Of a stretch of DNA of 64,000 nucleotides, positions 6,765-64,000 are shown in pieces. The stretch comes from Escallonia rubra (lineage: Eukaryota > Streptophyta > Magnoliopsida > Escalloniales > Escalloniaceae): the NCBI GenBank assembly GCA_033065855.1, contig JAVXUO010002000.1, positions 248,001 to 312,000 of the forward strand, given 5' to 3'. Every line of letters starts with the position of its first letter. Positions within the stretch are counted from its first letter, which is position 1. The notes beneath the pieces are model-generated. The model had not been told where the DNA came from. It did not search any database and was given only the letters and a program-made list of their open reading frames with translations. Made by a program: the position numbers and the translations under genes.

Positions 6765-6771
6765 TTTTATA
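6765..6771 (-). promoter_or_regulatory. TATA box of NHL copy 2
   Basis: TATAAAA on the minus strand, about 125 bases before the ATG at 6640. The spacing fits a leader of roughly 90-100 bases. Confidence 0.5.
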
Positions 6772-27670: not shown

Positions 27671-27744
27671 AGGGATGTAGCGCAGCTTGGTAGCGCGTTC
27701 GTTTTGGGTACAAAATGTCACGGGTTCAAATCATGTCATCCCTG
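27671..27744 (+). tRNA. trnP-UGG: Plastid-type tRNA-Pro (UGG), probably a nuclear pseudogene copy
   Basis: 74 bases that fold as a tRNA. The acceptor stem AGGGATG pairs fully with CATCCCT. The D arm is GCGCAGCTTGGTAGCGC, the anticodon loop TTTGGGT carries UGG, and the T loop is TTCAAAT. Sequence and fold match chloroplast trnP-UGG, as I recall it, almost base for base. Two changes each break a stem pair: C in the anticodon stem (TTCGT against ACAAA) and A in the T stem (ACGGG against CATGT). Nuclear tRNA-Pro genes look different. It is therefore best read as plastid DNA moved to the nucleus, directly or by way of a mitochondrial copy. Plastid neighbours (trnW, petG, psaJ) are not recognisable here, so the fragment is short. 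Confidence 0.85.
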
Positions 27745-40381: not shown

Positions 40382-40623
40382 TTTTCCCCCAGTAGTATTT
40401 CATCTTTTGCTACTTTTTAGTTTATTAAGAGAAAAAAGATGAAATAAAAAGATTTATCAGGTCTTTTTTTTTTTTTTTTTGGTTTTTTTCATTTAGATTT
40501 GGGTTGTTTGAATAAAAAACAAATTGGGTGGTTTTAGGAAACTTAAGCTTGAAGTGGTGTTATATGGCTCAAGCCTCAAGTGATGATTTTTTTGTCCTTG
40601 AATTTTTTTTGTTATTGTTTCTA

Positions 40624-41882: not shown

Positions 41883-43154
41883 TAATTTTGTAGATGTAAT
41901 TGTATGTTAGTTACAGCTATTTTACAGTACTGTAGAGAATTCTAACCCATATACAGACAAGTATGGCAGAGAACTTCAGTCCATATACAGCAATTTCTCG
42001 TACAACAACTTGCTTGAGTGGTAAGGACTGTATAAAGCCGAACATTTGGCATTCATGTGAATATAAATAATAAAATTCTATTTTGATTATCATGGTTTCT
42101 ATTCTGACTATGGCCATGATCCGGAGGACTTAGACTTAAAAAACTTTTGATCAAAGTTAAAGAAAGATTTATTTTCTTCTAGGTCCCGCGGATAAAGATG
42201 AAAATTTTTATAATTGTTAAAAAATAATATTCTATTCATGTTTGCGTGAACAACATTCTTTTCTTTTCCCACCAATTTCGGTCAAAAGTGAAAACGAATC
42301 GATTGATTGCTGGGTCCATAATTTTTTCAAAAAATGGTTAACGAACATTTTTATATCATCATTATACTTTGACTCTGATTATACATGCTCCGAGAGTCCT
42401 TAAATTCCTTTCCGATCCAGTTTTAAATCTATTAAAAGTTCATAGATCTATTAGAAGTTTCAAAAAGCAAGTACAAAACTGATTCACTTCATGGTTTTGC
42501 TTCCAATTACTACTATTTTATGTATAGATCTGCTGAGAAATCTCGCAGACAACATTCCAACTGACTGACTACAACCTACTATCTCAAAAAATCACATTAC
42601 AATCTCCAATAAATAGATTATGAAGGACAAAAAAAAAAAAGAAGACCTCTGCACTTTACTAAACAGAATATATGCTTTTATACCCTTTTTTCCCCTCTTG
42701 CAAAAACCTAATTTACATTTTTGGCAAAACTCTGATCCAAGTGCTTCATAAGATAAACCGAGGAAGTCCTATTTTGTGTCCCAACTTCTTGACATCGTCC
42801 TGGACCTGTTGTCTGAATTCTCTGAAGCTGAACTTTCTGTAAACTGAAGGCTCAGCGCAGCTCTGTATCACAGACTCATACGATGGACAGAAGAAGTACG
42901 CGGTTGAGAACCTCTCTATCGCCTTGTTGGTAACAACCCGATGCTCAACGCTCTTGTAAACATCGTTGCTCCATGCCTGCATACGCAACATAGAAACCCG
43001 GGTTAATAGAATCATCGATTAATAACTTAAAATTCGATGCATGAACCTAGTTTAACACGGTTTTCTTACGTACTTGAATAGATACAAATTTGCTATTTGA
43101 GGTTAGGATTCTATATTTTGGATAAAATTTGGTACGAATAGCGCTACTTAATTA
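41883..43154. repeat. Tandem duplication, upstream copy (functional exon)
   Basis: Second unit of the 1.26-kb tandem pair, containing the intact final exon of the GA2-oxidase gene. Similarity ends just after GCGCTACTTAATT in each copy, inside the last intron. Confidence 0.88.
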
Positions 43155-45753
43155 TGGTTCACTTGCTCAATATCAAGGTTATCCGGTGCACGAGACCCCC
43201 GTATATAAAGCTTAGAAGTGTGTAAACCGGAAAGAGCCATGTAAACAGTACGTACACACTAAATGTACCTGAAATAAGTCTCCAATGTTGATAATTAGAG
43301 CTTCTTGATTAGGTTTAACAGCAATCCATTTCCCATCTTTGATTAGTTGCAATCCTCCGATCTGATCTTGATGCAATATCGTGAGGAAATCACTGTCGGT
43401 GTGTGGCATCAGGCCGAACACCTCAGAAGAAATTGGACACGATGGGTATCGATTCATCCGAAGGTAGCAAGTGCTCGGTAAGCAATGTTCTTTAAAGAAA
43501 GTCGACTTGTGACCCAAGTTCTCGGCCAAGATTTCTGCTAACTTCTGTGCTAGGTCAGAAACTGTAGCGGCAAATTGTTCCATTGTTGAGCTGATCCGTC
43601 ACAATGGAGAAATTGGTTAGCCGAAGAACTTACAGGCATTACTAATTGCAATGTGTAACCATACATAACAAGCTTAACTTTTTGAAGTAATAAATTACTT
43701 GATTTGCACATCCAATAATAATCTTTGTTATTTTCAGCAGATTAATGGTTTTACATTGTACCCGAGTACCTCTCATTTTCCACTCTATCGACGACTTTAG
43801 ACAGCATTGCCTTTCCTTCAACTTAAGGATCTAGATCATCTGCTGTTGTTCGTAGAACACCAACTTTTCAGCGCTAGTCGCTACTTTTAACGACCAATAC
43901 AATATGTTTTGTTTGGTCGTTACGACGTCTTGAGCGACCAAATGTGTACTATCTGGGACTGTATTGCCGGATTTCCAGCTCATCCCACATGTAAAAATCA
44001 GGAGAGGTACTGATAAACTTAAATAATTAAGCACAGAGGGTACTGAGGCCATGCATGCAAATACAATGCACGTACATGGAATCTGAGCTCTAAGAGGAAG
44101 GTGATATTGTTACAGTTGTCCCGGTACCTGCCGGGAGATAAGCTGTGATTCTTGGCAGTGTCTCAGTATATGATGGGAAGTTCTGAAAACACTTCTAATA
44201 GAACCCGAACACATACAACTGTGTACCCAAAAAAAAACATACAACTGTGAAATGTGTTGCAGTAGTCCACTTGGTACCATGTCACAAGATGCCTATACTT
44301 CCCTTCTCCGATTATAGTGTCCTAACATTAACATGTGAAGCAAACTGACTCATCCATGGCGACTTTTCCCAGGTTCATGGAGCCTCCACGAATCTACGTC
44401 CAAGTTACGCCACGTGTTAGCCAACAAGACTTTCATAAATATCTTCTTTTAGTGAAAGCCCATAGTTTAGGTTAGCTGAATCTTTTAATGGTGGCCCATT
44501 GTGTCTCCCATCTTTTGAGATGGTCAATTTTCGTGTGGAATGCCTGTTCTAGAGCTTGTATTGTTTATACGTGGCCCGCTTTTTTGCAGGAGAATCATCC
44601 ATAAGTCAACCCATTAGCAGTTGAGAGAAATGGATTTGGACTCCAATTGGCAGATCAAATGTATCGATTTCGACTTTTAACTTACCCGATGTCTTTTTGT
44701 TCCATTTTAATCCACAGGCCATTGCCATATCTTGGTCATTTAACCAAAATGCTGAAACAATCAAATCACCTGATGGGTCTTGAAGTTGGTTGCATCCTCC
44801 CTCATCCTTCCAATTTTGACAGCCAATTAAGCAAATCACATGCCCTCTCACCCGCAACCCGCTCACTCCACACATGGGTGGTGTACACGCATCTAAGAAT
44901 GTGTGGCTTTTCTTAATTGGCTGCTATCACCGCCACAACTCGTTTGATACCCTTCCAACTTAACTATCTTAGATCAAAGTGCTTTGGTTAGACAAAGCAT
45001 TTCATGTCATGGAAAGGGTCACGTTAACATAAGATGATAAGTCCTTTGAGGTGCTTGGCCTGGTTCCTAATGTGCAAATGCAACAAGCTCCTATCACCCT
45101 AATATTAAGAAAGTACCAAGTGGATGGACATATGGAGTTGAACAACGATGTCACCTCTTAAGTTTTTTTTGTACTTTTAGCATGCTTAGTCCTTGTTCTT
45201 AGATAAGCTAGTCCTCGTTTTCTTGTTCTTGTCATGATCTCAGCAGGTTATAACAACATAGTGATAGAGAGGTTGGATAAAGAAACAATAAAAAGCATCG
45301 GAAATACCTGAGATTGGTGAGACCACCCAAGCCAGAAATATCCGTTGATGGTACGTGAAAAGCTTCTGACCAAGCCAGCTGCCTGAGACAAGTAGCTGAA
45401 GGAGTTCCCCAGCGGTAACTGCCCGCCGGAAAATTCAAAAACTTGTCACTGGCCTTCTCGTGAAATGGCCTCTTCAACACTTTCACTTGCTCGCTCCTCA
45501 TTTTCTCCAGAATCTCGCGCGAAACGCCGTGGTTCACGACTTGAAAGAAGCCCCATTCTTGCGAAGCCTCAGCAATCTCTCTCTTGCAGGCCTCTCTCTC
45601 CTTCGGTCCGAGGCTTAGCCGGCCGAGATCGATCAACGGGAGCTCCATTTCCTCCACAATGAGAGGTCTGGCGCCATTCTTGGGCAACTCCTCGTTGAAG
45701 TTGCTGAAGAGGGTTTTGTACGTGTCTTGAAATGGGGGGTCAGGTGAGTCCAT
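42746..45753 (-). CDS. GA2OX8: Gibberellin 2-beta-dioxygenase, C20-GA class (GA2ox8-like)
   Basis: Soluble 2-oxoglutarate/Fe(II) dioxygenase that deactivates gibberellin precursors by 2-beta-hydroxylation. Three exons on the minus strand, 45753-45308, 43590-43269 and 42976-42746, give 332 residues, normal for the family. The N-terminal DIOX_N part includes ELPLIDLGRL and EWGFFQVVNHGVS. SAGSYRWGTPSAT-type residues (here PAGSYRWGTPSAT) and SWSEAFHVP (here AWSEAFHVP) mark the C20-GA2ox clade. Fe ligands are His212 and Asp214 (HTDSDF) and His268 (SVEHR); the 2-oxoglutarate pair is Arg278 and Ser280 (RFSTAYF). The last intron and exon 3 sit in a tandem duplication whose other copy is broken. (GT)n and (GA)n tracts lie about 320-400 bases upstream of the ATG. 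Confidence 0.94.
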
Positions 45754-46070
45754 GATTAAAAGGGGCTGAAAAAAGGAGGAGAGTAGACACGGGTTAATGC
45801 TTAATTAACCAATTCAAGCTGCAGTTGTTGCTCTTCTTGTTCTTGTTCTTTTTGGTGTTTCCAAAAAGATGCCAAGAACCCTAGCTAGGACGGAGGAGAT
45901 TTGGCACAAACGACGAGGTTGCTCAATCACTGGACTATGCTAGCTATGGTGAATGACAAAGGGATGAGAACTAAAATGACCCTTGTCTCGTAATGTTTCT
46001 TGTTCTTTCGTCTTCGATGAAAACGTTATGACAATTTCCTCTTACAAAGGTGATTCGTGTCGTTTATATG

Positions 46071-46071
<1 letters not shown>

Positions 46072-46109
<38 letters not shown>
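46072..46109. repeat. (GT)n microsatellite
   Basis: GT tract of about 38 bases upstream of the GA2-oxidase gene, followed at 46122-46145 by a (GA)n tract. Confidence 0.95.
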
Positions 46110-46111
<2 letters not shown>

Positions 46112-46145
46112 TTTGTGTTGCGAGAGAGAGAGAGAGAGAGAGAGA

Positions 46146-49100
46146 TGAGGAAGGCGGGGAGGGGGGGAGGGGGGATTGCCGGAATAAATATGCTCATTCA
46201 CTTCAGACAAATATGCAAAGACAAAAACGTAGACTATGCACGTTTGAACGATTTCTCTCAATAAAACAAAAGGGAACTCGTGTTACACTCCCTAAAATAT
46301 GGATTCCACAACTTCTTTGTCCAATTAAACGGCCGTCCTAAAGTTTCAACTATGCCACTCGGTAACTCTGAAGTCTTCAACCATGTCATTTTGATCTATA
46401 TGTCCCTTCCATTTCCTTTTTATCTCACTTTTTTACAAGATTTTAAGTTACACTTTCGATCACGATAAACGTTAGTTTAAACTTCTCGGCATCGTGAGTT
46501 CTTGGAAAAGAGATCAGCCTATGAGTCGGGTCACTTAATTAGCCATGCTTAAACCAAGCATCGTGAAAATAAATGCTACTCAGCCAAGAAAGATGATGAG
46601 AGTTGGCCAGAGAGGCCAAAGGAAGAAAAAGAAAATTCAATGAAATGAAATAATTAACTATATTTGCCCAAGCAAATGAACATGAACTTTTCATACAGAT
46701 CAAAGAGGCTTGTCAGTTTTCATCTTCAAAGAGGCTTGTCAGTTTTCATCTTCATTACATAATTCAAAGGAATTCATCTTCATTAGTGACTGTTCCATCA
46801 AAATTTTGTGGGTGCCAAACTATTAAGGATGAGAAATTTAACGTATGGCCAATATTTTTCATATGGGGGTTTTGGGATTTCGAAGAAGCCAAGGCCAGGT
46901 GTGTCTGATCATGCAGCTGAGCTGTGATTCAGTACAAGTGGTCAGTACAGGTACTAGCTAGCATTGTACAAATGGTGACATTTTTGTGTTTCCTTGTCTG
47001 CTTCCTTAATTGGGCAAATGAAAGTTGGATCTTCTTGTTAAGGCTTGAGTTTAACTCCTGCAAACACTTGACTAGGTCTCATGAAAATTCGGCCTATTTG
47101 TACTATAATATGGCCGGAAACAATATGCCAATAAATGGTACAGTGGAGTCGTTCTCCAAAAACTGGAACAAAAAAATAAATTTAAGCGGAAGATATCCTC
47201 CAAATACGGTTCAAACACATCCTCTTATGAAAAGAATCGAACCCAAGAGACCTTGTCAAATCCATAACTCCTCTATCATGTTAAGTTACGACTTGCTGCT
47301 CCAAAAACGATAGTAGATAATGGACTAACGCGTTCTATTTAAGTAGAAGAAAAGCTAGCGAAAGAAGAAAAACAGATTCTATGCTGCTTTCTGGATAACA
47401 GGAAGGGACTTTAATATCTTCTGCCTTGCAGACAAGTATCCAGCAACAAAGTAGTATAAAGCATGGGTAGAAGAAGCGTCCATACCTAGTTTAGATTTAC
47501 CGGAAACTTGAAGGCGTCCACTTAGCACAAGGTAGGAGCTTTAAGGGTACAAAGTTGTGTACTCTGCATCTTGGATTCAGCTGAGATTAGCAGCTGAGCT
47601 GTATTAGGAAAAGATAAAGCTCAGCTCAAAGATATATAAGCAAGCAAATGAAGAGAATTGCTTGCATGTCAATGCACGGAGACGTCAACATTTGATAGCT
47701 AAGAATCATATTGGCAATATATTATTATACCTGTTAGCTGCTTCCTTGTAGCAACATTGTTATCCTCCTTGAAAGCCGTGGTATTTGTTGAGGAATAAGA
47801 TGGGTGAATATAGCATGCTGATATACATAATTTGATACTTATTGTAAAGTCATCGAATCACAAAACAAAATAATGCGACAGAAGACAACGATTGATGGAA
47901 GAGTGGGCGCTCACACACACACACACTCTCATACAAGAGCTGAAAAACGCGACTTCAATCAACACGATCACGAAAAACAGATAAATCTTTGGACACAGTT
48001 TTTTTGTAAAATTTGTACTTAAAAAAAATGTTTATCATAGAGCTTTATTATAGAATCAAACTACTAATTAATAAACAGGCTTTCCTCGAAGAGAATTCTA
48101 TCTGACACAAAGTCTATCGCCATCTTTACAAAATCGTACTGGGCATGCACTCTGTACCTATTAAATGAAGGCTATTTCAAGAAGCAGAAAGAAAAGAGAG
48201 AGGGAAACAAAGCATGTACAAACGTAGCTAAATGCAAAAGAAGAATAGAGGAATATTACAAAAGATGAAGAATCAACATGAAAGACCAGCAATGATGAGG
48301 CATTGACACTTACTTGGAAGAAGAATCAAACTTGACTTGAGAGAGAGGGAGAGAGATTGCAGCCCACAAAAGTTGGAGGGAGATTTTATAGGGGAAGAAG
48401 GAGGAGGGCCATGTATCAATGATTGCCATCATAATAGGAGCAATGAAAAGATAGCAAAGGGTCGAGAGTCTATGTTTTAGAGAAGAACACGCGTCTCATA
48501 TTGCTATCAGAGAAATCTACTCCTTTTACTCTTTTAGCAAAAAAATGGCCATGCAGTGGGTTCGTTTCCTCTTTCTGCTAAGGTTTTGTATGTAGCCATG
48601 TGAGAGGGCCAGAGAGAGAGAGGGAGAGGGACCAGAATTTAACTTGAGCTACCATTCAAGTGGTGTGTATATACATACAAGACTCAAACTTGAAAGCTTT
48701 CCTATAAGATCGAGTATTAAGATTGGATTGCATTCATCTGATTCTTCTCAAATTTTACCGATCAAACTCGAAAGTTTTCTTATAACTTATAAGTATTAAG
48801 ATATTGCATACATGGTTTCATTGACTAACTCAAAAGAATGTTCAAGAGGAAGAGATCGAAACCCATCAAGTATAGGAACCGACGTCAATCGTTATGTATA
48901 ACCGATGTGAAACTTTAACGACAAAAAAGTTCAAGAACATAACGAAATTGCTTCACACCTATTTCATTTGGTTACCATTCTTCCAAGTCTCCCCTCTCAG
49001 TCTCATTTCTCTCACCCCCTCTAGGTGTTTCTGACAGAGAAGCAAAGCACATGATAAACACTGGATCTAAGTGTTAGAACGATGAGCATATCCTGAGTCC

Positions 49101-50480
49101 ATGTCGGCATGTATAATACGTGGAAGAATCTGAAAGGATCCAGGTCACATGCCTAGTCTGACGTCCACGTCAGCGCTCAGAATTGGCCTAGGACGAGAAT
49201 TTAAGGGCATGCATGTGCACTGCTTACATGGAAAAGGACATCAGTATCCCCTATTTCCAATTTATGGCACCATACCCCAGGGCTCATTACAACAAAAAAA
49301 CATTGGGATCGGGCCGATTGGCTAAGGACAAATCCTACTTAAAACCGATTCGTTCTATGACAAGTTGGGCAAGTTGTTAACTTAAACTGACAGATCAAGC
49401 TCAATAATGATTGAACGATAAGTGGCGAGTTCTGAGCAAGGAAAAGACACATGGCATACTAACATATGCCCTAAAGTTTTAAAACCTCAGTAAAATGTGC
49501 TATGTGTCATCAAGAGAGGGTAAATGTGGCACGCGGCAAGAGCTGAATGAAAACTCAACCGTGAAGGTAAAATGGGATTATATCGAGTTCCAACACGTGA
49601 CAAAGGCATCTCCAGATTAGATCGACCTAAGACTAAATGATTACAACTCAACTATAAAAGCTCTAATCGTTAGCTCAACTAATATTCTTCTACACCAGAC
49701 ATAAACTAGCTCATAGTTTATGTTATCACCTTCATTTATCTTAGGTAAACGGGTTTATACTAGGTTACAACCATTAAACCAGTTGTTTGAATCCCTCAAA
49801 CAGTCCCCAAACTGTAACCAATCTTGGAATGAGTGCTTTGTACACTCAGAATAATTAAAGTTGTTCACTATAAACACTATGTAAACTGTCGTTATTCATT
49901 GTATTATCATATTTGGTTTGATTAGGAGGAGTAGTAATTAGGTTAGAGTATTGGTAACATAAATAACACTGAAAAAGTCCTAAGGTATTAGGCCAAAAGT
50001 CTTCACACATTGTTTAAAAGAGGTCAAATTACGCACACTCCCTCAACACATGAAACTGCCTCAATATTTAAATATTGTGTTTAACACGTGATGCCGTCAA
50101 GACCTGGCATGCCACGTGGGCACCATAAAATATCAATTTTTAGCGAAGGGCACATATTAGAAGCGTTTATAGAGCGAAAGACACTTAAAAGAAAAACTAG
50201 GTCTTAGGCCCCCTTAGATAGATTTAATTTGGTGCCTCGTCGAACAACCTATGCATACAATAAAGTACTCACGCAAATAAACTTTTACACGCTTAGAAAA
50301 CAGTGGCGAGAAAAGTATGACAACATTCATCAGGCATTGCTCGATCATATCTTCTTCTGTTAGATTCTAGTTATCGATGTAAATTAAGACTGTCAAAGCC
50401 TGGTGTTTAACTCAAAAACGTTGTCACAAAAAGAATAATCTCACCAAATATAAGAAGCATACACAACTTATTTATTTGAT
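46146..50480. other. Gene-poor spacer
   Basis: No supported gene on either strand. Purine-rich stretches (48190-48360 and 48600-48650) and short GA runs are present. The open frame 46924-47313 has no recognisable domain or splice context. Known plant microRNA sequences were looked for by eye and not found. Confidence 0.45.
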
Positions 50481-50481
50481 G

Positions 50482-50900
50482 TGGGATATTATTCAACACC
50501 CACCCTCGCGTGAAACGTAGGATTAGGCCATAACCAAGAACATCGAAAACCTCAATCCTATTTACGGCATGATCAAGAGGTAAATAAAGCGCCTCGATGA
50601 GGATATATATATATGAGAATAAAGACTAAAGAAGCAAATCTGAATATAAGAACCAGATCCACAACTAATTATTTCTAGCCGATACGGGATATAACTTATT
50701 ACTTGCCCCTATGTGAAATATGGAATTAGGTGATGACTAAGGATGTCAGAAACCTTGATCCTAGTTACGGCCTAAGGAGGAGAATAAAGAGCCTCGATAA
50801 GGATGAGATTAAAGAACCTTTAGCTGAAGTAGGACATAACGTATCACCTGTCCTAAACGTGGGATTAGGCAATGACAAAGAACATCGAAAACCTTGATAC
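50482..50900. repeat. Degenerate tandem repeats, probably an old LTR remnant
   Basis: Three diverged units (starting near 50482, 50682 and 50824) share GTGGGATAT or its variants, GTGAAA.GTAGGATTAGG, ACAAAGAACATCGAAAACC-like text, TTGATCC.A.TTACGGC, and AATAAAGAGCCTCGATAAGG. A further copy of the last blocks lies at about 51929-52010, beyond the LINE. The LINE therefore inserted into, or next to, this array. Confidence 0.6.
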
Positions 50901-50986
50901 CAATCTTTGTCTCCTATGCAACAATTGACCTAAGACTACACAACATGTTTTCCCACCTGCCCCTCGGTCCAACCTATCTGGTTCGG

Positions 50987-50997
50987 AATACTGCTTG
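50987..50997. repeat. Left target-site duplication of the 51-kb LINE
   Basis: AATACTGCTTG, identical to 51917-51927. The As at the right copy merge with the poly(A) tail. Confidence 0.75.
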
Positions 50998-51916
50998 GTG
51001 TCCGGGTGGAGGATGTTGATAGTACATTTAAGGAATGACTCATTGCTTGATTTGCCCCACCGTCTACCCATGCTCTGAACTGGCGCACAATCTTATACTT
51101 CTTTGTTACCATCTGGTCTATTTGGCTACACAGAAAATAACTTAGTCTTTAGGCAAATTCCTTTCTCCCCCATGTCAGCACCATTTCCACATATTCTCAA
51201 AAATTACCAAATTTGCCCAACCGAATTGCATACCGTATGGGTTGATCAGAACTTATTCGGTTTCGCCGAGACAAATTTCTATTCATACATGTACAATACC
51301 TTGTCCATGCATGGCCTCTGTTCATATCAATTTGGTCTCTCATACTCATTTTGACTCACAACGGTTGCGAGCCGGGATTGGCTTAACATACTACTGTAAT
51401 AACACACGATGTGGATCTGCTGCTTTATCCACCGCATCGTCTGATAGTTATACTGCTTTATCACATGCATGGACTGCTACTTGCATCTACTTGGGCTTTA
51501 AAACAGAAATTCTTTCATATATGTGTACTCACTGCATCTAATTTTCTCTTGAACCCGATGTCGGGATCTGAGGACATCTTAGATACGGTGACCCCTATTA
51601 TCTATGACTTTTGTCATCTAGTGACTGAATTATATCATTATAGTATTGATAGGGCAGACCCACAACTCTTGAAGGAAGCATGATCCTTAGCACTTTTTGT
51701 TTGTCAACCACGCATGAACATTATCAGGATTAGGTAATTGACAATTTATGTAGCTAAATTTTGTTTCATAGATGATGAAATTCTATAGTGGGTAGTGGTA
51801 ATACCGTCCTTTTGATATTCATGGCGGTATTTATTATCTGTAAGACCATAAGGTCAAAACTCTCTTGCATCCATTTTTATTTCTAATGTAATTCTCTTAT
51901 TACCACAAAAAAAAAA
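50998..51916 (+). mobile_element. 5'-truncated LINE, frame-broken
   Basis: Plus-strand insert of about 919 bases ending in poly(A) at 51905-51918 and flanked by 11-base direct repeats. Fragments of the post-zf-RVT region (FVTIWSIWLHRK, then ENNLVFRQIPFSP after a frameshift) and of the RNase H-like C-terminus (DILDTVTPIIYDFCHLV, LLKEA) are readable across several frames. The protein tail and 3' UTR match the LINE at 5388-5807, so both belong to one family. Stops and frameshifts make it older than the intact-frame LINE at 8.9 kb. Confidence 0.8.
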
Positions 51917-52009
51917 AATACTGCTTGACGAAGAGCATAAAGTGTCTCGATAAAGATGAGAATAAAGAACCTCGATCCGAATTACAGCATGAAAAATAGA
52001 ATAGAAATA

Positions 52010-54815
52010 GGTAGTGGGTCTTGGCTTTGATCGATACCAGGTTAAACTCTTACATCCAATCCAAAATTATGCTCGTTAGAAAGATAAGCTCACCAAATGT
52101 AAGAAACAAATTCACAACTTCATTCTAGCAAATGTGAAATATGACTTAACAGCAACACGTTGCTTTGACTTTATTTATAGGTGAAAGTTACATTGGCCAG
52201 AGGAAAACTTCGAGTCGGCAATTCCTACCTGCTGATAGAGGTAGTTGAAAACTTTCGGCAGAAAAATGGATAGGGACCAAGAAATGGACTGCGAGAACAC
52301 CAGAAACTTGACCCACATTTATTGGATTGAATGTTTATGGATGAACCAGTTCCACAAATTAATGGAGGACTTTAAACCTTGTGGTGGAACAGGGGTTTGA
52401 CTATAAGCATTAGCTGCCTGCGATTGTTCATTTAGGAAAGTGACTTCATCAATTCGTAATGAAAATGACTAATGATTCTTTCACAAAACATGAAGGGATA
52501 TGGATAATTACTGTTGGGTAGCCTGTCAACCTTGCTTAATATCACACATAGGCACATGGGCAATTCATTGATAAACTTGTATCGGTCTAGATAAGTTGAA
52601 TGTTACTGTGATTGATAATATCGTCGGCCGTTGGACATTTGAATGTTACTGTGATTGATAATTTTTGAAAGAGATACGGAGACAACATAATGAATTCTTT
52701 AGTATGATTGTAGCGGTTCCAAATAGACCATTTGACATGCGGGCATAAACACTCTATGCTAGGCTACATTTCGTTTGTGATACTCTGTGAATTTACAAGT
52801 GTGCACAATGAACAAAAATACATTAAACCCGTGGCCTAAGATATGGGTACTTTTTGGTCTTGAGGCTAATGAACCCCAACAATATCAACCTGCCAAATTT
52901 TCTATGCTGTGGCAAGGAAAATCAGTCCTACTGCTGGGGGACGGAGTAATAATAAGTATCTTATCGCAAATATGGGTCCCCAAAATAAATATCAAAAGCA
53001 TTCATGTGGGGAATCCCCAGAACAGCAACAAGCTTTATGGGCCAATTTCTAGTTGGCCGACCTTCATTTTCATAAATCAGTCACATGACATCTTCGTGGC
53101 AGTGATTTGACCACAATATTCTTATGATCAGGTCATTCATTGAAAGTTTCTGTTACTCCCCTTTCGGGGATGCATTGTTATATATAACAAATAAAAACAA
53201 AAACTGTGTCCGGCCATCGCCGTAAAAACCAGAAATCCTTTCTATTCGAAGTTTATGATATTTTTTCACCACATGAGAAACACTATCTAGATCGGAAATA
53301 GCGATCAAATTCAAGATGTTAAAATTTCACGCTATGCATGAGGGCGAGCATTAAAGTTTCACGCCGACTATGCATGAAGGTAGTAATCGATTTTATATCC
53401 GATGGACTTCTCGTCTTCTTGAGAATGCTCTTGGATGGTCAGAAGCACCGACATAGAGACTTCTAGCCAAGTTGCTGACCATATGCACACATTCCAGAAA
53501 AAGAGGACTAGGTATCCATTATGGCTCCTCTAATTTTTTTATTCAAATCTGCAAATGGTCCTTCTTGCTCTAAATACATATTAACATTTTTTAAACGTGA
53601 ATACTTGAATTCTTCACAAGAATTCAAGTGGATGAAGATTCATGTTCGCATTTCATTGTGTGTCTGTCAGGCATATGGTCGCTTTTCAGTGAACAAATTG
53701 GTTTGATGTATACGCATAAAAACAAAATTCTGACCCCCTAAAGTTGTTCAGCAACATGGCAAGCATTTACCTATTCCAAACATGTAAACTAATATGGTTA
53801 AGTGACTTGAAACAAAAGGGTAGATCTATCCCTCTCGTTGTTCAGCATGGAGAAAATCGTTTGGTTCGCAAGTTGGTAGCAGTCACACACCTCATCAAAA
53901 TCAACAAGTCGATCACGCGTCTACCGATTTCAAGGTGAAGGCATCGGTCGCAAGTCATGACAAACTCTAGCTAGACCCTAAAAAGTCGAAGACCAATAAT
54001 CGAAGCAAAAGGCGAATATCTTCCAACGGTTGGTAGTTATTATCAGGTACGGTTGATGAAGGCACGGATCTAGACAACATATTGAAAAGGTGAAGCGCAT
54101 GAGGTAGCCATATGTGGCAATGAAGAGCCGCTCCAGGGGACCTGCATCAGACCCCTCTCTCTCTCTGTGTGTGTGTGTGTGTGTATAAATATCAAGCGTT
54201 GGGAGTCGAAGGTGAGTGGTGGGATGGGCTTTGCAGGTCATGTTGGTACGTTCAATCATTAGGAGACCGAAGATTCGCCATCTTTCGGCCTAAGTTTTGA
54301 AACGTTAACCATGACGATACGTGGCCTTCTAGCCATCGAGAACTTAAGCCCATGTGCACTGTCCGGCCCCCTCTCACTTGCTCAGCATCATGTGTACTGT
54401 TTGAGCTTTGTTCCTCATTTCCTGTAGATCTTTCTGCTGATCAGCTCTGTTGCTCTTTTTGACACTTTGAAAGATACCTTCGCAACTTGTGCTACTTGCA
54501 CTCGTTTTCGGCTGCCTAGAGGCTTCCTCTTACTCTTGCACGACCTTTGCTTTTGCTTATCTCATCTATCTTTTTGGTGTCCCTTCTAACAGTTAGAATG
54601 GTGGAATGATAATATCTGAATCAATCAACTACCCTTTCTGACCTAATAATTAATATCCACGTCATAAACTTCTGAGAATGTCTGTTTCTACACACACACA
54701 CTGTGCTATAATTATCCACACCGTCATTTTGTCCCTATAAGGAATATCGGGGACAATGTATTTACTTTTTAAGAGCAAATTGGGTGTGAACGGGTAGACA
54801 TATAAGGACGTGAGA
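52010..54815. other. Gene-poor spacer
   Basis: No gene supported. Open frames at 52787-53110 and 53521-53938 lack any family resemblance. A short CT/TG microsatellite occurs at 54153-54184. Confidence 0.45.
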
Positions 54816-54818
54816 TTA

Positions 54819-54821
<3 letters not shown>

Positions 54822-54855
<34 letters not shown>
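54822..54855. repeat. (AT)n microsatellite
   Basis: Uninterrupted TA tract of about 34 bases, 200 bases before the Helitron-like end. Confidence 0.95.
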
Positions 54856-54858
<3 letters not shown>

Positions 54859-55135
54859 CCTTGTTTTGTGATAAATAGGAAAGCTGACTCCGTTAACACT
54901 TTTATTCTATTGAATGACATTGCTTGTGTGGTAATATGATAAACAATGTACTGCACAAGGAGCGTTTAGAGGATGTGAGTGCCGATGAGCCAACCATAAA
55001 GTGGATATGTAAAATATTTTGGGGATGGGTAACATCGTTTTACTTTTCAAAACCTACACTCGAGTTATCTATACTTACTTATAAAAAAAAAGTATGAATC
55101 TTGTAAATCATTTCGTTCCGTTTTTTTCCTTCATT

Positions 55136-57262
55136 AATTACTTCAATAACAATCTTACCCTTTGCAATTAATATAATTACTAATTTTCTAAACTCTTTTC
55201 TTCCGGATTTGCCCTCTGCTAATTACTCCAATGACAATCCTACCCTTCCGTAATTAATTTCTTTGTAATGAGTTTATTCAACGGTATGTGATAAATTTAA
55301 TCTAAATCTACATTTGTACATTGGGAAACAAAATGTGTGGTTGTAAAAAAAAAACATGTAACGAAACCCTTTAAGTCCAAGAGAAAGACAAAGCTAAGAA
55401 ATTAAATTTGCCGGACAAAAAAACAACGAGAACAAAAACAAAAGAGTTCAAGCTTCAAAAACAGCTAATGAAAAAACAAAAGGTTTTTGCCCTTCGTTAA
55501 TTATTTCAATAACAATCTTACCCCTTTGCAATTAATAATTACTAATGTTCTAAACTCTTTTCTTCCGGTTTTGCCCTCCACTAATTACTCCAGTGGAAAT
55601 CGTACCCTTTCGTAATTAATTTCTGTGTAATGTGTTTATTGAACATTATGTGATAAATTTAATCTAAATCTATATTTATATTTATACATTGGGAAACGAA
55701 ATATGTGGTTGCAAAAAAAAGATGTAACGAAACCCTTTGAGTCCAAGAGAAAAACAAAGCTAAGAAATTAAAATTGCCGGACAAAAAACAACGAGAGAAA
55801 AACAAAAGAATTCAAGCTTCAAAAACAGCTAATGAAAAAAAAGGTACTGAAAAAACAATAAAACCAAACAGACAAAAAATAGTCAAAGAAAAAAAAAGTT
55901 AAAGTTAGTTGAAATATATGGCATCAAAATCGCATACCCTATTACATTTTACTTCTTGATACTTTAAGGCCGGATGTATTTTCACTATCAAAAAGCAACC
56001 AAGCAATTGTATTCAAGATGCATGCACCAAAAAATTTCCTGAATTTACATACGGAAACGAGAGTGGAACCAGTCATGTTCAATGATGCCATCTCAAAGTT
56101 TGAGCCAGTGCTTCAAAAATGAATAACTTACTTAATATCATAACGAATAGTTAGCCCAACGAACCAAAATTTCACAAATGTCAACAGGCACATTGAATTA
56201 CTTCAATAACAATCTTACCATTTTACAATTAATATAATTACTAATGTTCTCAGCTCTTTTCTTCCGGATTTGTCCTCCGCTAATTACTCAAATGACAATC
56301 CTACCCTTCCGTAATTAATTTCTTTGTAATGAGTTTATTCAACATTATGTGATAAATTTAATATAAATCTACATTGTACATTGGGAAACGGAATGTGTGG
56401 TTGTAAAAAAAAAGGAACATGTAATGAAACCCTTTAAGTCCAAGAGAAAGACAAAGCTAAGAAATTAAATTTTCCGGACAAAAAAACAACGAGAACAAAA
56501 ACAAAAGAGTTCAAGCTTCAAAAACAGCTAATGAAAAAAAAAAGGTTTTTTTCCTTCGTTAATTATTACAATAACAATCTTACTCCTTTGCAATTAATAA
56601 TTACTAATGTTCTAAACTCTTTTCTTCCGGTTTTGCCCTCCGCTAATTACTCCAATGGAAATCTTATCCTTCGGTAATTAATTTCTTTGTAATGTGTTTA
56701 TTGAACATTATGTGATAAATTTAATCTAAATCTATATTTATATTTATACATTGGGAAACGAAATATGTGGTTGTAAAAAAAATATAACGAAACCCTTTAA
56801 GTGCAAGAGAAAAACAAAGCTAAGAAATTAAAATTGCCGGACAAAAAACAATGAGAGCAAAAACAAAAGAGTTCAAGCTTCAAAAACGGCTAGTGAAAAA
56901 AAAAAGGTACTGAAAAAACAATAAAACCAAACAAACAAAAAATAGTCAAAGAAAAAAGAATTAAAGTTAGTTGAAATATATAGCATCAAAATCGCATACC
57001 CTATTACATTTTACTTCTTGATACTTTAAGGCCGGATGTATTTTCACTATCAAAAAGCAACCAAGCAATTGTATTCAAGATGCATGCACCAAAAAAAATC
57101 CTGAATTTACATACAGGGAACGAGAGTGGAATCAGTCATGTTCAATGATGCCATCTCAAAGTTTGAGCCAGTGCTTCAAAAAGGAACAACTTACTTAATA
57201 TCACACGGAACAGTTAGCCCAACGAACCAAAATTTCACAAATGTCAACAAGCACATTGAATT
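55136..57262 (+). repeat. Higher-order tandem repeat, two 1.06-kb units
   Basis: Unit 1 is about 55136-56198 and unit 2 about 56199-57262; matching landmarks are 1060-1063 bases apart. Each unit holds two sub-repeats of about 363 bases (TTAATTACTTCAATAACAATC, then AATTACTCCA, then GGGAAACRAAATRTGTGGTTG, then TTCAAGCTTCAAAAAC). A tail of about 350 bases follows, ending in the RPA DBD-A exon. Unit 1 stops inside that exon at CATTGAATT, whose likeness to CATTAATT at the unit start suggests a microhomology junction. Confidence 0.88.
56075..56198 (+). pseudogene. RPA70 DBD-A exon, truncated copy
   Basis: Reads MFNDAISKFEPVLQK and then hits TGA at 56120-56122 where the second copy has GGA. It is cut off 76 bases later by the repeat junction. 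It clearly descends from the same exon as 57126-57497. Confidence 0.8.
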
Positions 57263-57497
57263 GTCACTTCCAGTGATAGCCAACATCATTCAAGCCCCTG
57301 AAGATATTTGTATGGATAATATCTTGAAGAATTTTCTGTCGATCCGACAGACAATACAGAAAGGGCCTACAGCATCCTCAAGTAAGATGATAGGGGGAAA
57401 AAATCAAATAGCACGCATATTATTGCATTTAGAATTTCATATTGTACCTGTTGTGCTCAATTTAATGTCAGCTTTGTTAAGTCTGTCATTAGATTAG
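57126..57497 (+). pseudogene. Replication protein A large-subunit-like DBD-A fragment
   Basis: Open stretch of 123 codons whose first half matches the RPA70 DNA-binding domain A pattern: MFNDAISKFEPVLQKGTTY, then LISHGTVSPTNQNFTNVNKH, then IELSL, then PEDI. RPA70 binds single-stranded DNA in replication and repair. Nothing upstream supplies the N-terminal protein-interaction domain, and the following text from about residue 75 is not clearly RPA, so this is an exon of a broken gene. The frame after the exon probably reads into an intron. Confidence 0.65.
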
Positions 57498-58404
57498 AGC
57501 TTAAATTTTATAACCAGTCTAAGTAAGAGTGATACCCCCTGTGAACAAAATCCTAAACTGATAAATTGATTATAACTTGGTTCAACTAATTATTAAAAAT
57601 CCATAGAGAAGCCATTTAAGCTAAAGTGCAAGTAATAAGAACGAGAAAAGAGAATACAACCTTCCTAAGATAGACAGAGCTCGAGAAAATAGGAGAAGAG
57701 GGCTTGAAGATATGTTGTAAAATCACTAAAGTTCAATTTTAAGTTGCCCATTGAAAAAAAAAGGTGAAAAACTTGATACTTACAGCTTGAATAATTTAAT
57801 TTTTAAGGAAGTAATGAATTTTCGTACCAAATATATGTTTGATTGGAGCTCATTAACGAATCAAATTGATGTGTAGATGTAAATGATTTTATGAAGCTTT
57901 TTACCATCACTCTATTACAACTACATCCAAATGATCAATTATCCGTTATAGTTGATATAAACATTCTCATAATCGGATGTAACATTGTTTGAGGGTAATA
58001 TTGGATCAGTGCTAGGGAGAGAAAAATACGAGGAAAGGACCATTAGAAGATAGGAATTCTTTTGGCAAGGATGTTCTTGTCAATGTATGAGCATAATCTT
58101 CAAAGTATCAAAATGAAACCTAGTAGATTTTCCCGTTTGAAATAAAAGATACTACTTGTTCCCAACCTATCCTGGTCGCACCCAAAGGTCCACTGGGATC
58201 CCATTTTTCATGACTCATCCGCACAAGCAACATTCATTTTCAACGCTCACAACCGGTCAAAGCATGCACGCTCAAGTCACGTGCACTTCTCACTTTCGTT
58301 ACGTTACTTCGTCACTAAGAAGCTCATTTTCGCGCAAAGCCTCATGACACTTCGACCGTCGCACTTCGCATGTCGCCCATCGGCGCACCATGGCACTTGC
58401 CCAA

Positions 58405-58540
58405 GGAAGTTGGCCTTGGCCTTCCCCTTGGGGTCGGCCTCGGCCTCCCCTTGGGGGTCGGCCTCGGCCTTCCCTTGGGGTTGGCCTTGGCCTCCCCCTA
58501 AGGGTTGGCCTTGGACTTCCCCTATGGGTTGGCCTTTGGT
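58405..58540. repeat. Short tandem repeat of about 30 bases inside the LTR
   Basis: Four to five diverged units of the GGCCTYGGCCTYCCCTTGGG type. Confidence 0.8.
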
Positions 58541-58959
58541 CTCCATACTTAACACCTTAACTTTTCTTCAAGGGACCATGCACAACTCCGCGACCACGTC
58601 GCCAGGACACAACTCCGCGACCCCGTCGCCCGGACAAAACTCCCCCACCCCGTCGCCGGCGTCCGGGCGTCGCACTTCAACACTCCGCTGCGCCCGTGCG
58701 CCGCGCCGCTGATACAGTCGTGCCCCCAGGCTCTCTGTCACACTACCTAGCTCCCGGCACCATACGCACTCTGTCGCGCCCAGGCGCATCGCCACTAACA
58801 TAGACGTGCCCCCGGCACCTTACTCACTCCGTCGCACCCATGCGCCACAATCATGTTACATGCCCCCCAGGCACCACACTCATTCACCACACCATGCGCA
58901 CCTTGCCTTGGTCGTGGAACATACTTCGACCCCCTCTCCGGAGTGTGCAACATCCTGCG

Positions 58960-59690
58960 GGGATAGGTGACTCCTCCTGGACACTATCTCCGCCAGGGAG
59001 CTCTTCAACTCCCCTTCCGCCAGGTAGACGGCTCCTCCGGGATGCTACCTCGGCCAGTCGGGTAGACGGATCCTCCGGGATGCTACCTCGGCCAGTCGGG
59101 TAGACGGCTCCTCCGGGATGCTACCTTGACGTGCTCCGAGTGCTCTGGCACAAGGACTCACCCGCAGGGATAGACGACTTCTTCGGGACACTATCTTCGT
59201 CAGGGAGCTCTTCAACTCCCTTTCCGCTAGGTAGACGGTTCCTCCGGGATGCTACCTCGGCCAGTCGGGTAGACGGCTCCTCTGGGATGCTACCTTGACG
59301 CGCTCCGAGTGCTCCGGCACAAGGACTCACCCGCGGGGATAGGCGACTCCTCCGAGACACTATCTCTGCCAGGGAGCTCTTCAACTCCCTTTCTGCCAGG
59401 TAGACGGCTCCTCCAGGATGCTACCTCGGCCAGTCGGGTAGACGGCTTATCCGGGATGCTACCTTGATGCGCTTCGAGTGCTCCGGCACAAGGACTCACA
59501 TGCGGGGATATGCGACTCCTCTGGGACACTATCTCTGCCAGGGAGCTCCAAGTGCTCCGGCACGAAGACTCCCCTTCTACCAGGTAGACGGCTCCTTCGG
59601 GATGCTACCTCGGCCTGCGGAATAGGTGATTCCTCCGAGACACTATCCCCGCCAGGGTGTCTGCGTGACTGGCCTACGTGCTCCAGCACT
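58960..59690. repeat. Complex minisatellite inside the LTR
   Basis: Units GTAGACGGCTCCTCCGGGAT + GCTACCTCGGCCAGTCGG (about 38-45 bases) alternate with a longer segment (GTGCTCCGGCACAAGGACTC, then GGGATAGGCGACTCCTCCG, then GCCAGGGAGCTC). Together they form an array with a period near 170-180 bases and three to four higher-order copies. Confidence 0.85.
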
Positions 59691-60052
59691 TGAGGCTTAC
59701 GTCGGCACCCCTAGGGACTATGACCCCCGGGTGACTCCGAGACGGGAGCAGGTCTTCGGATGGCATCGTGCCTAGTTCACCTAGCAGCTGGGCATCGGGT
59801 CTTCCCCACCGCTGCCAGGCCAGCGGGACTCCGTAAGTGCTTGGATTGGAGGCTAGATCAAGGGGGTCCTCTGGCCACACCGATACTGTGGGAGCCAGTC
59901 TTTCCAGACAGACAGTGCGACGCTGTGCGGGGCAGGCCAGGTGAATATGCGATCTTACAGTCTGTGGAGCTAAGGCACCCGTGGACCCCCCGGTGACGTG
60001 TCACTCTCGGGGGGCACCACTTGTTGGTTAATGACATCGTCATCTCAATCTC

Positions 60053-60060
60053 TATAAATA
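60053..60060 (+). promoter_or_regulatory. TATA box of the LTR
   Basis: TCTCTATAAATAGAGG context, a palindromic strong plant TATA box. It would drive transcription toward the right end of the LTR. Confidence 0.75.
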
Positions 60061-60321
60061 GAGGTCTTGAGATTTCATTCGGGACGAAACATGGAGGGGG
60101 GACATTTTCACGGGACTCTCACATTTTCATTTTCTCACTCTAGAATCCTAGAGAGAGAAACATACAGGACCTTGACTCTGGACCTAAGCATCGGACTGTA
60201 ACTGTCGTCGTGTATTCATCCTGCGTTATCACCCTCGCAGCACTGCCACCCTCAAGCTCTGTCGGGAAGCCCTTGGTCTCTGCCCTTGTTCCACCCTTGT
60301 TGTGTCCTACATCAACATACT

Positions 60322-61652
60322 TGGCATCTGACTCGGACTGCATTCCTTGTGGCACCTCCACGTCGACTGCGAACCCACTTTCCTTGACATCACTACTCAA
60401 GATAGGCATTAAGATAAAAAATGAAAATGAAGCAACTCCTCAGAGAAAAAAATTATTTCGGAGGGACTATGCCATATGGCCGAACTATTTACAAGTTAAC
60501 AACTTGTCTTCTAAGAAGTGGCATTGCCTTTTCTATTTGTACTTGTATAGTTCATATGCTTTTCCGTAATACATTATTTTTTTTTTATTAAATTATTGTT
60601 GTAAATGCCTTGACACTATGAACTTTTGCTCTTATGAGAAGTCTTTTCACATATATGCTGTCATGTGTGGGCAACGCTAGACAATGAGGTGAAGTACTGA
60701 TCAGAAACGCAAACTTTTTTGAAGAAAGCGGGAATGTTAGACAATAAGAGAGCAATTATAAGTAGGAATCGAGTTTCATGATAAAGGCTTGCATGCCTGA
60801 ATATAAGTTATCCATGACGTAGTTATACGTGTAATTGCATTGCATTAAAATAACATATCAGACCAAACTAGGAGTCGTGTATAGAAGATCCAGCCACAAC
60901 TAAAGGAAGATCCAGTCATCCGCTTGAGTCAAATAGTCGTAAATGATCATGTGCATGTCTTTGAACGAGTATTTCATGTTGAACTGCAGTTCAGTGGAAT
61001 TATAAATAAGTCATTTCATTTGCCTCCTTGTCAAGCTTTATCTCATTAGCTTGATAATTCTAGAAGCGCTTGTCTTTCACACACACACTGCACTTTGTTA
61101 AATGAGCCATAATGAAAAATAACAGTATCACCATTTTCTTCACTTTCTACATTTGCTTGTCCTTTGAAATTTCTACCCTCACCTCACTTTTAGTTGTCTT
61201 GCCATTAATTTCGATCGTGTATACTTTTGAAGTAAAGACATGTGAACATTAAGCTTTGCCACAAAGGCCTGCTACTGCCTCCTGTTACCAAACATCTTTC
61301 TGCCTCTCAGTTGAATGAGCTTAAAGCCTTTGTCACTCAAAAGAAATTCAGTAACCTGGTTACTGATGATGATGTTGATCATGAGACACGTGATTGATCT
61401 TGTTTGTATTGAAGTTATTAGTGCTGTAACCAAGAGCACCCCTAAGCGGGATAGGGAAAAAATGGTATGCTAAAAAGATCAATCCTTCTTAAGCTCATCT
61501 CACTAAAGCTCAAAAAAGGCTCTATCAAAAACTCGTTCTCTGTCAGGTGTTAATGTTTAGTTATCTTATCTAGAACTCTAGAAGTATTGTGCACTTTGAC
61601 AAAATAACTTATGTCAAGAACTTAAAATAGAGAGTATAGGCCATCCCTTGTT
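60322..61652. other. Between the LTR and RPA DBD-B
   Basis: AT-rich. The stretch 61245-61395 reads as one short open frame (LLLPPVTKHLSASQLNELK, then VTDDDVDHETRD) of unknown origin, ended by TGA. The rest shows nothing recognisable. Confidence 0.4.
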
Positions 61653-62045
61653 GTGATTTTTGAAACTAAACAATTGGGAATTAAGATTCCTAGACTAGCT
61701 AAGAGGCATAATATGGAACACTTTATGCACGACAATATTCAGAATCCTGACACTTGGCTATTTTGGCACAATGACCTAACTGTTAATTTATCCTCTCACT
61801 GTGAAAAAGCTATATCAGTTTCTCTTTCTTTTGCTCGTGTTCCTTTGTGTATATGCCAAATGCACCAAAGTGGAAATGAAGTAGTTAAGAGACAATATTC
61901 TTCTTCTTGCTCTTACGATTCTACAGGCATTCTAGGAGTAGTGGTTAACGCAAAACCACTCTCAAGCATCAGGAGAAACAGAGATGGGACTGTGCATAAA
62001 AGGCGAGAAATCATCGTGATGGAGAATATGAAACGCAAGAAGTGA
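61653..62045 (+). pseudogene. Replication protein A large-subunit-like DBD-B fragment
   Basis: The last 43 codons (from about 61912) read YDSTGILGVVVNAKPLSS, then IRRNRDGTVHKRREIIVMEN. This is the typical RPA70 DBD-B strand-loop pattern (DxxGVV..., S.IRRK.., KRDI.). It ends at TGA 62043-62045. A CTACAG acceptor at 61919-61925 may start the exon. The preceding 85 codons have no RPA likeness and are probably intron. Zinc-ribbon DBD-C is not found downstream. Confidence 0.6.
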
Positions 62046-62271
62046 GAAGTGAAGTACATTTATCACTTTCTTACTTGGTTTCTGGGTTGCCCTCCATTGG
62101 ATAGCCCAAGCTCAAAGTTGCATTGATGGACCACAAGAAGTTGAAATGAAGGATGACTAAACCTCCAAACCAAATAAAAGTTTTGGGGTGGATTGAACTT
62201 TGGATTGATCCTGAGACCAGACTCATGTGATAGTGGTTTGAGTTCATCTTTCAGGAAGGGGATGTGACACT

Positions 62272-62522
62272 GCTTACTTGTAGAGAAATCCAAACCATAT
62301 CAATGTAAAGCCCAAACCATTTCTCTTTCTGGGCTTTTTTGAACTCAATTCATTTGAGAAATCCTTGCTAACATATGTTTGTGGGCTTACTTGTAGAGAA
62401 ACCATGTAAATGTAAAGCCCAAACCATTTGTCTTTCTGGGCTTTCTTGAACTAATTCATTTGAGAAATCCTTGCTAACATATGTTTGTGGGCTTACTTGT
62501 TGAGAATCTCATATTCTCAACA
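62272..62522. repeat. Tandem repeat of about 110 bases plus terminal hairpin
   Basis: Two units (from 62272 and 62385) and the start of a third (62491) share GCTTACTTGTAGAGAAA, TGTAAAGCCCAAACCATTT, TTTCTGGGCTTT and CATTTGAGAAATCCTTGCTA. The partial third unit ends in an inverted repeat, GTTGAGAAT/ATTCTCAAC. It lies about 470 bases before the DnaJ ATG. Confidence 0.85.
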
Positions 62523-62995
62523 GTTTTCACAAGCCTGAAGTTTTTGGTTTTTTGATTACTTTACATATACTTAAAAATATCGACAAAATTACATTTTTCT
62601 TATCATAAGAATTACTTATTGTCGTAAGAAGGATATTCGCGTAATCACGCTCACATATAACTACGTCTTATGCAAGTTTTCGTATGAATATGTCCTGAAC
62701 ATCCATTAAATTCGACGAAACGAAACTTAAAATAATGACTAGCATTTAACGAAATAAATTTAACCAATTTGTCGTTCACCGATCGAAATGGTAGTATCAA
62801 TCTTTTCAAATGTCTCAAAATCTAAATCCAATTCTTAAAATTTGTCCGAAAGGTCAAATACACCCCTGGCAATGAATCCCTAAGGTCAACGAGACTGAAG
62901 GTCATATAGGTAACTTCATGCCGCCTCCCTCCTCACAGTCTCACACCCGAAGAGCGAAATCTAGTTCGGGGAGAGAATCAGTTTACCGATCGACG

Positions 62996-63940
62996 ATGTC
63001 GCCAGCACCAGCTGCAAGCCTCTGGTGCGCGGTCACGGCGGCCGTCGTGTTTTCTCTCCTAATCCAGCCGTCGGTTTCCATCTACTGCGACGAGGACGAT
63101 TGCTACGATCTGCTAGGGTAACGCCCATCTACACTTCCCCTGCGCCTCATTTTCACCCATGAAGTTCATTTGTCACATTAGATTTTTGTTGCAGGGTAAC
63201 TCAAAGTGCCAATTCTTCTGAGATCAAAAAGGCTTACTACAAGCTCTCATTGAAACAGTGAGTTTTTTTTTTTAATTTACTAGTCTCTGTTTGTGTAAAT
63301 CTAAGCTGTCCTGCTTATTTTTCTTTTCTTTTGATTATGATATGCATTGCGTTTCTTAACTCATGATTTTCTTGTGTGTGTATAGTCATCCAGATAAAAA
63401 CCCTGATCCGGAATCGAGAAAGGTGTTTGTTAAGATTGCAAATGCTTATGAGGTAACTAGTAAAACTCATCTCTTTACTCGCCTCATTTGACTCTTTGCG
63501 TAATTCGAGGGTAGAATTAAAATGCATACGGGTTGAATTGAAGTCTAAGAGTTACTACATATCAAATTCGATTACAAGTCAAACTAGGGCAAAAACAATG
63601 AGTAATGTCAAAGCTAGCGTGTTCCGATTCTATTCTAAGAATTTCCAAAAAAATTCAAAAGGGGCAAAAAGTATGAAACAGAGGATTATATGACTGTGCT
63701 GTCAGGTGGGGATGTTGTTACGCTGGCATTCGATGATTATGTTCTCACACCTCATTGGTCCTTTTTATATCTGATCATAATATTTTGGTTATCTATGTTT
63801 TGGGACGATATTTTATTGTGGGATACCCTATGATTTTGGTTGGCTTATCGTGATGTTAGTGCTATTGAACATCTTTGTAGATTCTGAAAGATGAAGCCAC
63901 AAGAGAACAGTATGATTATGCAATTGCACATCCGGAGGAG
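62996..63940 (+). CDS. ER-lumenal J-domain protein (DnaJ50-like), 5' part of gene
   Basis: Hsp40 co-chaperone expected to stimulate BiP in the ER. Four exons are visible: 62996-63117, 63195-63257, 63386-63452 and 63881-63940 (phases agree). The gene continues beyond the window. A signal peptide or signal anchor spans about 1-29 (LWCAVTAAVVFSLLIQPSVS), followed by IYCDEDDCYDLLGV. The J domain holds KKAYYKLSLKHHPDKNPDPE, with the HPD triad at 63-65. ANAYEILKDEATREQYDYA and AIAHPEE follow. The CDEDDCYDLLG start and AIEHPEE-type end are characteristic of Arabidopsis DnaJ50 and related vertebrate DNAJC25 proteins, which add membrane helices after the J domain. The ATG at 62996 is chosen because it opens the signal peptide; an in-frame ATG at 62918 would mask it. 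Confidence 0.92.
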
Positions 63941-64000
63941 GTAAGTCAGGGTTATTGTTGGTGGTGTTTAATGGAGAGATAGATAGGATATGTCACTTAT

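Follow-up and report, generated by a model that had tools for sequence, protein, structure and literature searches.

Organization of the locus

We analyzed a window of 64,000 nucleotides from Escallonia rubra (positions 248001 to 312000 of contig C963 in a 566-Mb assembly; C numbers denote assembly contigs), in which a Helitron 5′ end, AT-rich tandem repeats, exons of a replication protein A (RPA) gene and a long terminal repeat (LTR) lie one behind the other. Based on comparisons with stretches fetched from the same genome (L numbers), we consider this locus an immobile member, truncated at the 3′ end, of a plant Helitron subfamily, with a probability of roughly 0.93. The subfamily is an RPA-only one without RepHel, the Helitron Rep/helicase; it carries a shortened RPA gene and resembles rice Mothra (PMC4683698). 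This kind of element is already known, and the window copy, which is a dead rather than a working element, is a decayed addition to it. The features of the locus are as follows.

55068–55119, + strand: Helitron 5′ terminus (TCTATACTTACTTATAAAA...), with A before it; left boundary shared in 14 of 20 copies
55120–55840, + strand: two 363-base AT-rich units, r1 (from 55120) and r2 (from 55483), in the first 1.06-kb unit
55135–56199, + strand: first 1.06-kb tandem unit
56053–56199, + strand: duplicated 5′ portion of RPA exon A, broken (acceptor lost, stops), within the first 1.06-kb unit
56196–56908, + strand: two 363-base units, r3 (from 56196) and r4 (from 56545), in the second 1.06-kb unit
56196–57262, + strand: second 1.06-kb tandem unit; not duplicated in the four colinear relatives
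57035–57116, + strand: 3′ part of RPA intron 1; homology to the RepHel-linked copy in C1536 starts at 57035
57117–57381, + strand: RPA exon A (second half of DNA-binding domain A, DBD-A), open, acceptor CAG/G, donor A/GTAAG
57382–61926, + strand: RPA intron holding the solo LTR
58152–58156, no strand: target site duplication CTACT, left
58157–60392, no strand: solo LTR, 2236 bp, TG...CA, 58.9% GC; empty site in all four colinear relatives
60393–60397, no strand: target site duplication CTACT, right
61927–62026, + strand: beginning of RPA exon B, covering the first part of DBD-B and ending at the 3′ breakpoint (~62026–62032)

A sequence-only reading of the window had placed DBD-A sequence at the end of the repeats and a DBD-B exon after the LTR, and both assignments were confirmed. 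Exon A is open, and its duplicate carries stops and has lost the acceptor. Exon B begins behind the acceptor TTCTACAG/GC, and the two exons join in phase into a 127-aa product that matched the TIGR00617 rpa1 profile at 1.7e-15 (model positions 227–347, without net gaps) and RPA70 entries of the Protein Data Bank (PDB) at 1.7e-5 at best; exon A alone, in its unspliced frame, gave a profile match at 2.3e-8. No further RPA part was found with NCBIfam on the + strand of 47401–57102 and 57101–63999, a scan that exons of ~40 aa can escape, as exon B alone did. The exon A donor at 57381/57382 is uncertain, with the gapless rpa1 match set against stops near the exon end in relatives: six of eight RepHel-linked copies have a stop 3–4 codons before the end of the 81 compared codons. 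Exon A may end earlier than 57381, or the stop-bearing RepHel-linked copies may be dead.

No Rep/helicase had been seen in the earlier reading, and our searches agreed with it. Pfam gave no match in the three + frames of 46001–64000, which is weak evidence, as the same scans missed the RPA exons; tblastn with the helicase end of C1536 gave no match on either strand of the whole window, and none of the PF14214 places lay in the window among the 150 matches listed. RepHel is not needed for a non-autonomous copy.

The 2.2-kb LTR nested in the locus was likewise borne out, with its TG...CA ends, its 5-bp duplication and an empty site in relatives. L009, L010, L011 and L015 carry a single uninterrupted site exactly where the LTR sits; the LTR is a later insertion into Helitron DNA. 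Since no second LTR was found within the window, we called 58157–60392 a solo LTR. It contains internal tandem repeats with periods of 24, 27, 38 and 169.

Genomic copies and the two ends of the element

The Helitron-like 5′ end proposed at 55068 consists of TC after an A and forms a common left boundary among genomic copies. A search with 55068–55500, as the earlier reading had suggested, returned at least 66 matches in the window's own genome (783 first-look candidates, 40 of them scored), and the 5′ end is repetitive rather than unique. Among 20 places taken for the 5′-end comparison, similarity to the window starts at 55065–55067 in 14 and at 55088–55098 in the other six. By eye, the sequences ahead of the shared left boundary are unrelated among copies, except in L012 and L013, which belong to the 14 boundary-sharing copies and are near-identical to each other. 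In four of the 20 copies (L009, L010, L011 and L015), colinearity with the window extends beyond exon A, and in all of these but L011 it reaches 62026. From the literature search on 5′ sequences, a maize Helitron paper gives TCTATACTAC. Viral contigs contained no relative by protein and no match to a 5′ pattern.

The 3′ end of the family was found in the same relatives. In L009 and L015, the element terminates with a GTGCAAC(A/G)CAC hairpin and CTAG, followed by T, which is the type of end that the sequence-only reading had expected in other copies; the end of L010 is degenerate. A 29-base 3′-end pattern with at most two mismatches occurred at 176 places genome-wide, compared with 0 for the reversed pattern used as a control. 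The place at C1684:138768 is that of L015; judged by strand and position, those at C2409:137493 and C173:254845 belong to the L011 and C173 elements.

The window departs from its relatives at ~62026–62032, where homology to L009, L010 and L015 stops, while these three stay colinear with one another beyond 62026. The part that the window lacks was not found elsewhere in it. The element therefore stops short of 62045, to which the locus had been extended, and the TGA at 62040 lies outside. Because its own 3′ hairpin and CTRR-T are missing, the window copy is classed only as a truncated family fragment. Scans of the window for hairpins gave no acceptable 3′ end. The best CTRR hairpin, at 62535, where CTGA comes after the stem, was tried and rejected: A follows, and the stem is AT-rich. 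Across the window, CTRR occurs 840 times on the + strand, and 2 of these sites have a comparably placed 10-bp stem.

Side observations were made at the ends of several copies. Additional TCTATA-like units lie ahead of the usual TCTATACTACC in L010, L012, L013, L018, L024 and L026 (at ~485–510, oriented) and look as if the extreme 5′ end had been iterated. L012 and L013 are 10-kb stretches from different contigs that are 97.8% identical, flank included, and both carry another 5′ end of the family in head-to-head orientation at ~53–323. At ~5060–5080 of L015, the CTAG end is directly followed by the 5′ region of another family member without its first bases (TACTACCTATAAAAG...), a junction to be expected if one Helitron had inserted into another at its 5′ end.

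Linkage of the RPA gene to RepHel

The spliced peptide had 97 matches in the genome. Exon A of the same family (73–99% identical) was found at 16 places, a number that counts the window but neither its own broken exon A duplicate at C963:304057 nor the pieces on C884. Nine of these have an upstream RPA exon and a PIF1-type helicase end in the 1.5-kb flank, one (L038) has the upstream RPA exon without the helicase end, and six (the window, C1684, C1900, C2708, C2409 and C173) have neither the first exon nor the helicase end. Of all 59 exon A places, 26 have the RepHel domain (PF14214) no more than 10 kb upstream in the same orientation, with a chance expectation of ~0.0013 per place; one place shows another arrangement, and for the remaining 32 no RepHel is listed.

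C1536 represents the RepHel-bearing form in the same genome. Read in separate pieces, with the helicase and the later RPA exons named by eye, it comprises a Helitron_like_N domain inside a 1121-aa open frame, the helicase end, a first RPA exon, an intron with a GTAAA donor and a TACATACAG acceptor, exon A, exon B and more RPA-like exons. Its exon A is 80% identical to that of the window, and its 3′ end has the hairpin and CTAG followed by T of the family. In contrast to C1536, the window gave no Helitron_like_N domain, helicase end or upstream RPA exon in the searches described. Homology between the two starts at window position 57035, inside RPA intron 1 (position 1420 of L033 aligns to it). 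Altogether, the DNA is that of a Helitron, as the earlier reading had it; the RPA lineage of the window is a Helitron one, and the RPA exons belong to the element.

Two further observations concern the arrangement of RPA exons. In the L011 element (C2409:121686–134858), the exon A and exon B matches are 13 kb apart; a large insertion, with an open frame that by eye resembles a CACTA transposon protein, has probably split it. About 22 contigs (e.g. C137, C437, C1864, C2364 and C2566) have an exon B match but no exon A match among those listed; in several of them, the family 3′ end follows ~1–1.7 kb further on. They may hold additional, shorter derivatives.

Tandem repeats near the 5′ end

The two-level repeat described from the sequence was confirmed as four 363-base units in two 1.06-kb units, with a further sub-repeat of ~78 bases inside them and 29.6% GC over 55120–56924. 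The 363-base units r1 and r3 are 95.1% identical and r2 and r4 95.3%, compared with 89.7–91.7% for the remaining four pairs; therefore, the 363-base doubling is the older and the 1.06-kb doubling the younger event. The two 1.06-kb units are ~95.4–95.5% identical and have AATT in common at the junction. Since the window is 92.3–92.6% identical to L009, L010 and L015 over 61015–62026, whereas the units reach 95.5%, the 1.06-kb duplication is also younger than the split from these copies. It is absent from all four colinear relatives, which have a single unit.

The repeats had been proposed as end-recognition or promoter arrays. A functional array of this kind (for end recognition, as a promoter or as a replication element), selected in the subfamily, seems unlikely to us. 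Each of the 20 copies contains a 363-base unit, whole or in part, although these copies were picked by that very sequence, and non-autonomous rice Mothra elements have low-GC repeats close to the 5′ end, for which the authors propose a role in transposition efficiency (PMC4683698). That suggestion backs the idea of an array; the present locus gives it no support. By BLAST over the first 3 kb, 16 of the 20 copies have one unit, whole or in part; L009, L010, L011 and L026 have an additional, partial one, and the window has four. Moreover, the younger duplication, which the four colinear relatives lack, includes a dead exon. The variable number of units leaves a possible role for a single 363-base unit.

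Selection on the RPA exons

The ratio of nonsynonymous to synonymous differences (pN/pS) was calculated for four of the six RPA-only and eight of the nine RepHel-linked copies (all but L037), a sample of small numbers and non-independent pairs. Within the RPA-only copies, exon A gave a pooled ratio of 0.81 over 81 codons (0.80 over 88 codons) and exon B one of 1.46, with few changes. Exon A within the RepHel-linked copies gave 0.66, with a stop in all but L033, and the ratio between the two groups was 0.45. The RPA was formerly constrained and now evolves nearly neutrally in RPA-only copies, and most of the compared RepHel-linked copies look decayed too.

It could be argued that the RPA-only subfamily is semi-autonomous and that a shortened RPA protein is still made and aids transposition. 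The ratio of 0.45 between the groups is consistent with this, as are the open frames of exon A in three copies (the window, L010 and L015) and of exon B in the four copies read. However, the ratios within the RPA-only copies are 0.81 and 1.46, exon A is interrupted by stops in L009 and L011, and the first RPA exon was not found in the 1.5-kb flank of any of the six RPA-only places. We regard semi-autonomy as improbable, and the shortened RPA probably does nothing. A still bolder version, in which the lineage, lacking RepHel, keeps the shortened RPA (the second half of DBD-A together with DBD-B and the later exons) as a working helper and the AT-rich 363-base units serve as its loading sites, is very doubtful; if true, it would amount to a two-part transposon in which single-stranded DNA binding and cutting come from different elements.

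Helitron RPA versus host RPA1

Exon A of the window is 74–81% identical to that of seven same-family RepHel-linked copies, 84% identical to its best Helitron relative and 46% identical to the distant RepHel-linked L047. The genome also has two RPA1-type genes with long open frames, C2514 (772 aa) and C1565 (556 aa), which share the RPA70 OB-fold family with the window and are only 22–25% identical to it over exon A, so the RPA exons do not match host RPA1 best. In a 20-row tree, rooted at the midpoint and using 12 of the 16 same-family places (all but L035, L036, L042 and L044), the window falls among the same-family RepHel-linked copies, and the host-type pair stands apart (99/99). Eleven of the 17 inner branches are open, as is the order inside the family; the group of host-type, animal and fungal sequences has only 67/81, and the DUF223 row is very long.

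A fragment of a host RPA1 gene that a Helitron had captured, or that arose by local duplication next to a Helitron insertion, was first suggested by the rpa1 and RPA70 matches and the missing DUF223 match, but this is extremely unlikely and was overturned by the identities within the genome (22–25% for host-type genes over exon A against 74–81% for copies adjoining RepHel), by the tree and by the 26 of 59 places at which RPA of the window lineage lies downstream of RepHel. DUF223 is tied to plant Helitron RPA; our literature searches for this link, through Helitron and through replication protein A, retrieved no paper. A DUF223-type plant RPA-like control protein, which is RPA70-like as well, also matches TIGR00617; therefore, the general rpa1 profile discriminates neither way. 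A profile match alone (an rpa1 hit without DUF223) cannot separate Helitron RPA from host RPA1, whereas linkage to RepHel can.

Several observations weigh against our assignment of the locus to a Helitron subfamily with RepHel-bearing relatives. At 33 of the 59 RPA places, no RepHel is listed upstream on the same strand, and the family node of the tree (94/90) is just below the tool's mark for firm support. The DUF223-type control matched PF02721 (3.5e-14, matched stretch), and the window did not, which initially spoke against a Helitron RPA. A hairpin with CTRRT was not found downstream on the + strand, so that the window copy, taken alone, fails one Helitron feature. Finally, the family 5′ end was not found in the C1536 stretch fetched upstream of RepHel (26501–30500), and no listed 5′-end match lay near any RepHel-linked RPA place. 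What the family demonstrably shares with the RepHel-bearing form is its 3′ end, and a common 5′ end would be conjecture.

Probable history of the element

Taking these data together, we propose the following as the most likely course of events for the RPA-only Helitron. A Helitron with RepHel and RPA would have lost RepHel and the first RPA exon, presumably by a deletion, and a 5′ module with AT-rich 363-base units would thereby have been joined to RPA intron 1, with the fusion point taken as 57035. This RPA-only form retained a canonical 3′ end and now occupies at least six places; its movement was presumably driven in trans by RepHel from sister elements with the same 3′ end. The dependence of mobility on partners, anticipated in the sequence-only reading, fits here: RepHel would have to come from other elements, and related RepHel-bearing elements exist in the genome. 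In the window copy, a 1.06-kb tandem duplication later arose via the 4-bp microhomology AATT, a retrotransposon inserted into the RPA intron and shrank to a solo LTR, and everything past ~62026, including the 3′ hairpin and CTAG, was lost.

Comparison with rice Mothra

Helitron families are delimited by identity over the terminal 30 bp, with a threshold of 80%. This terminal 30-bp criterion, that of Yang et al., is used by Roffler, Menardo and Wicker 2015 (PMC4683698), whose paper describes rice Mothra as an RPA-bearing mother element without RepHel, a sister family with RepHel and RPA, and derivatives rich in tandem repeats. The likeness to our locus extends to the Helitron termini, to an RPA gene without RepHel, to a sister group in which RepHel and RPA occur together with a related RPA and related ends, and to the low-GC tandem repeats near the 5′ end of non-autonomous Mothra elements. 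In E. rubra, RPA without RepHel was found in several copies (6 of 16 places, 1.5-kb flank).

However, the Mothra mother element has a putatively complete RPA gene of eight exons according to the same source (PMC4683698), whereas here the first exon was not found at the six places, and the window copy is also without a 3′ end. In addition, the rice repeat blocs are described there in elements without RPA. Because the first exon, and with it a complete RPA gene, was not found, we did not file the locus as the same type as the Mothra mother element; by description, it is of the same kind as Mothra, with a shortened RPA. With RPA-bearing Helitrons without RepHel and their repeat-rich derivatives already published for plants (PMC4683698), the claim that this is the most unusual structure in the window was too strong. 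What the locus adds is a further case of stepwise loss as described in the rice Mothra study (PMC4683698): one genome shows Helitrons with RepHel and RPA, an RPA-only derivative whose fusion point maps to RPA intron 1, and additional decayed copies.

Other features of the window

By domain matches, genes of the window include those for LEA_2 proteins, peroxidases and 2-oxoglutarate dioxygenase. Three consecutive open frames with an LEA_2 domain on the minus strand of 4053–8287 likely form a tandem gene cluster. A direct 1.28-kb duplication at 40621–43156 (40621–41890 and 41881–43156, 90.6% identical) adjoins open frames with 2-oxoglutarate dioxygenase domains. At 62292–62514, a 106-base unit is duplicated in tandem directly upstream of a gene that matches the DnaJ domain weakly.

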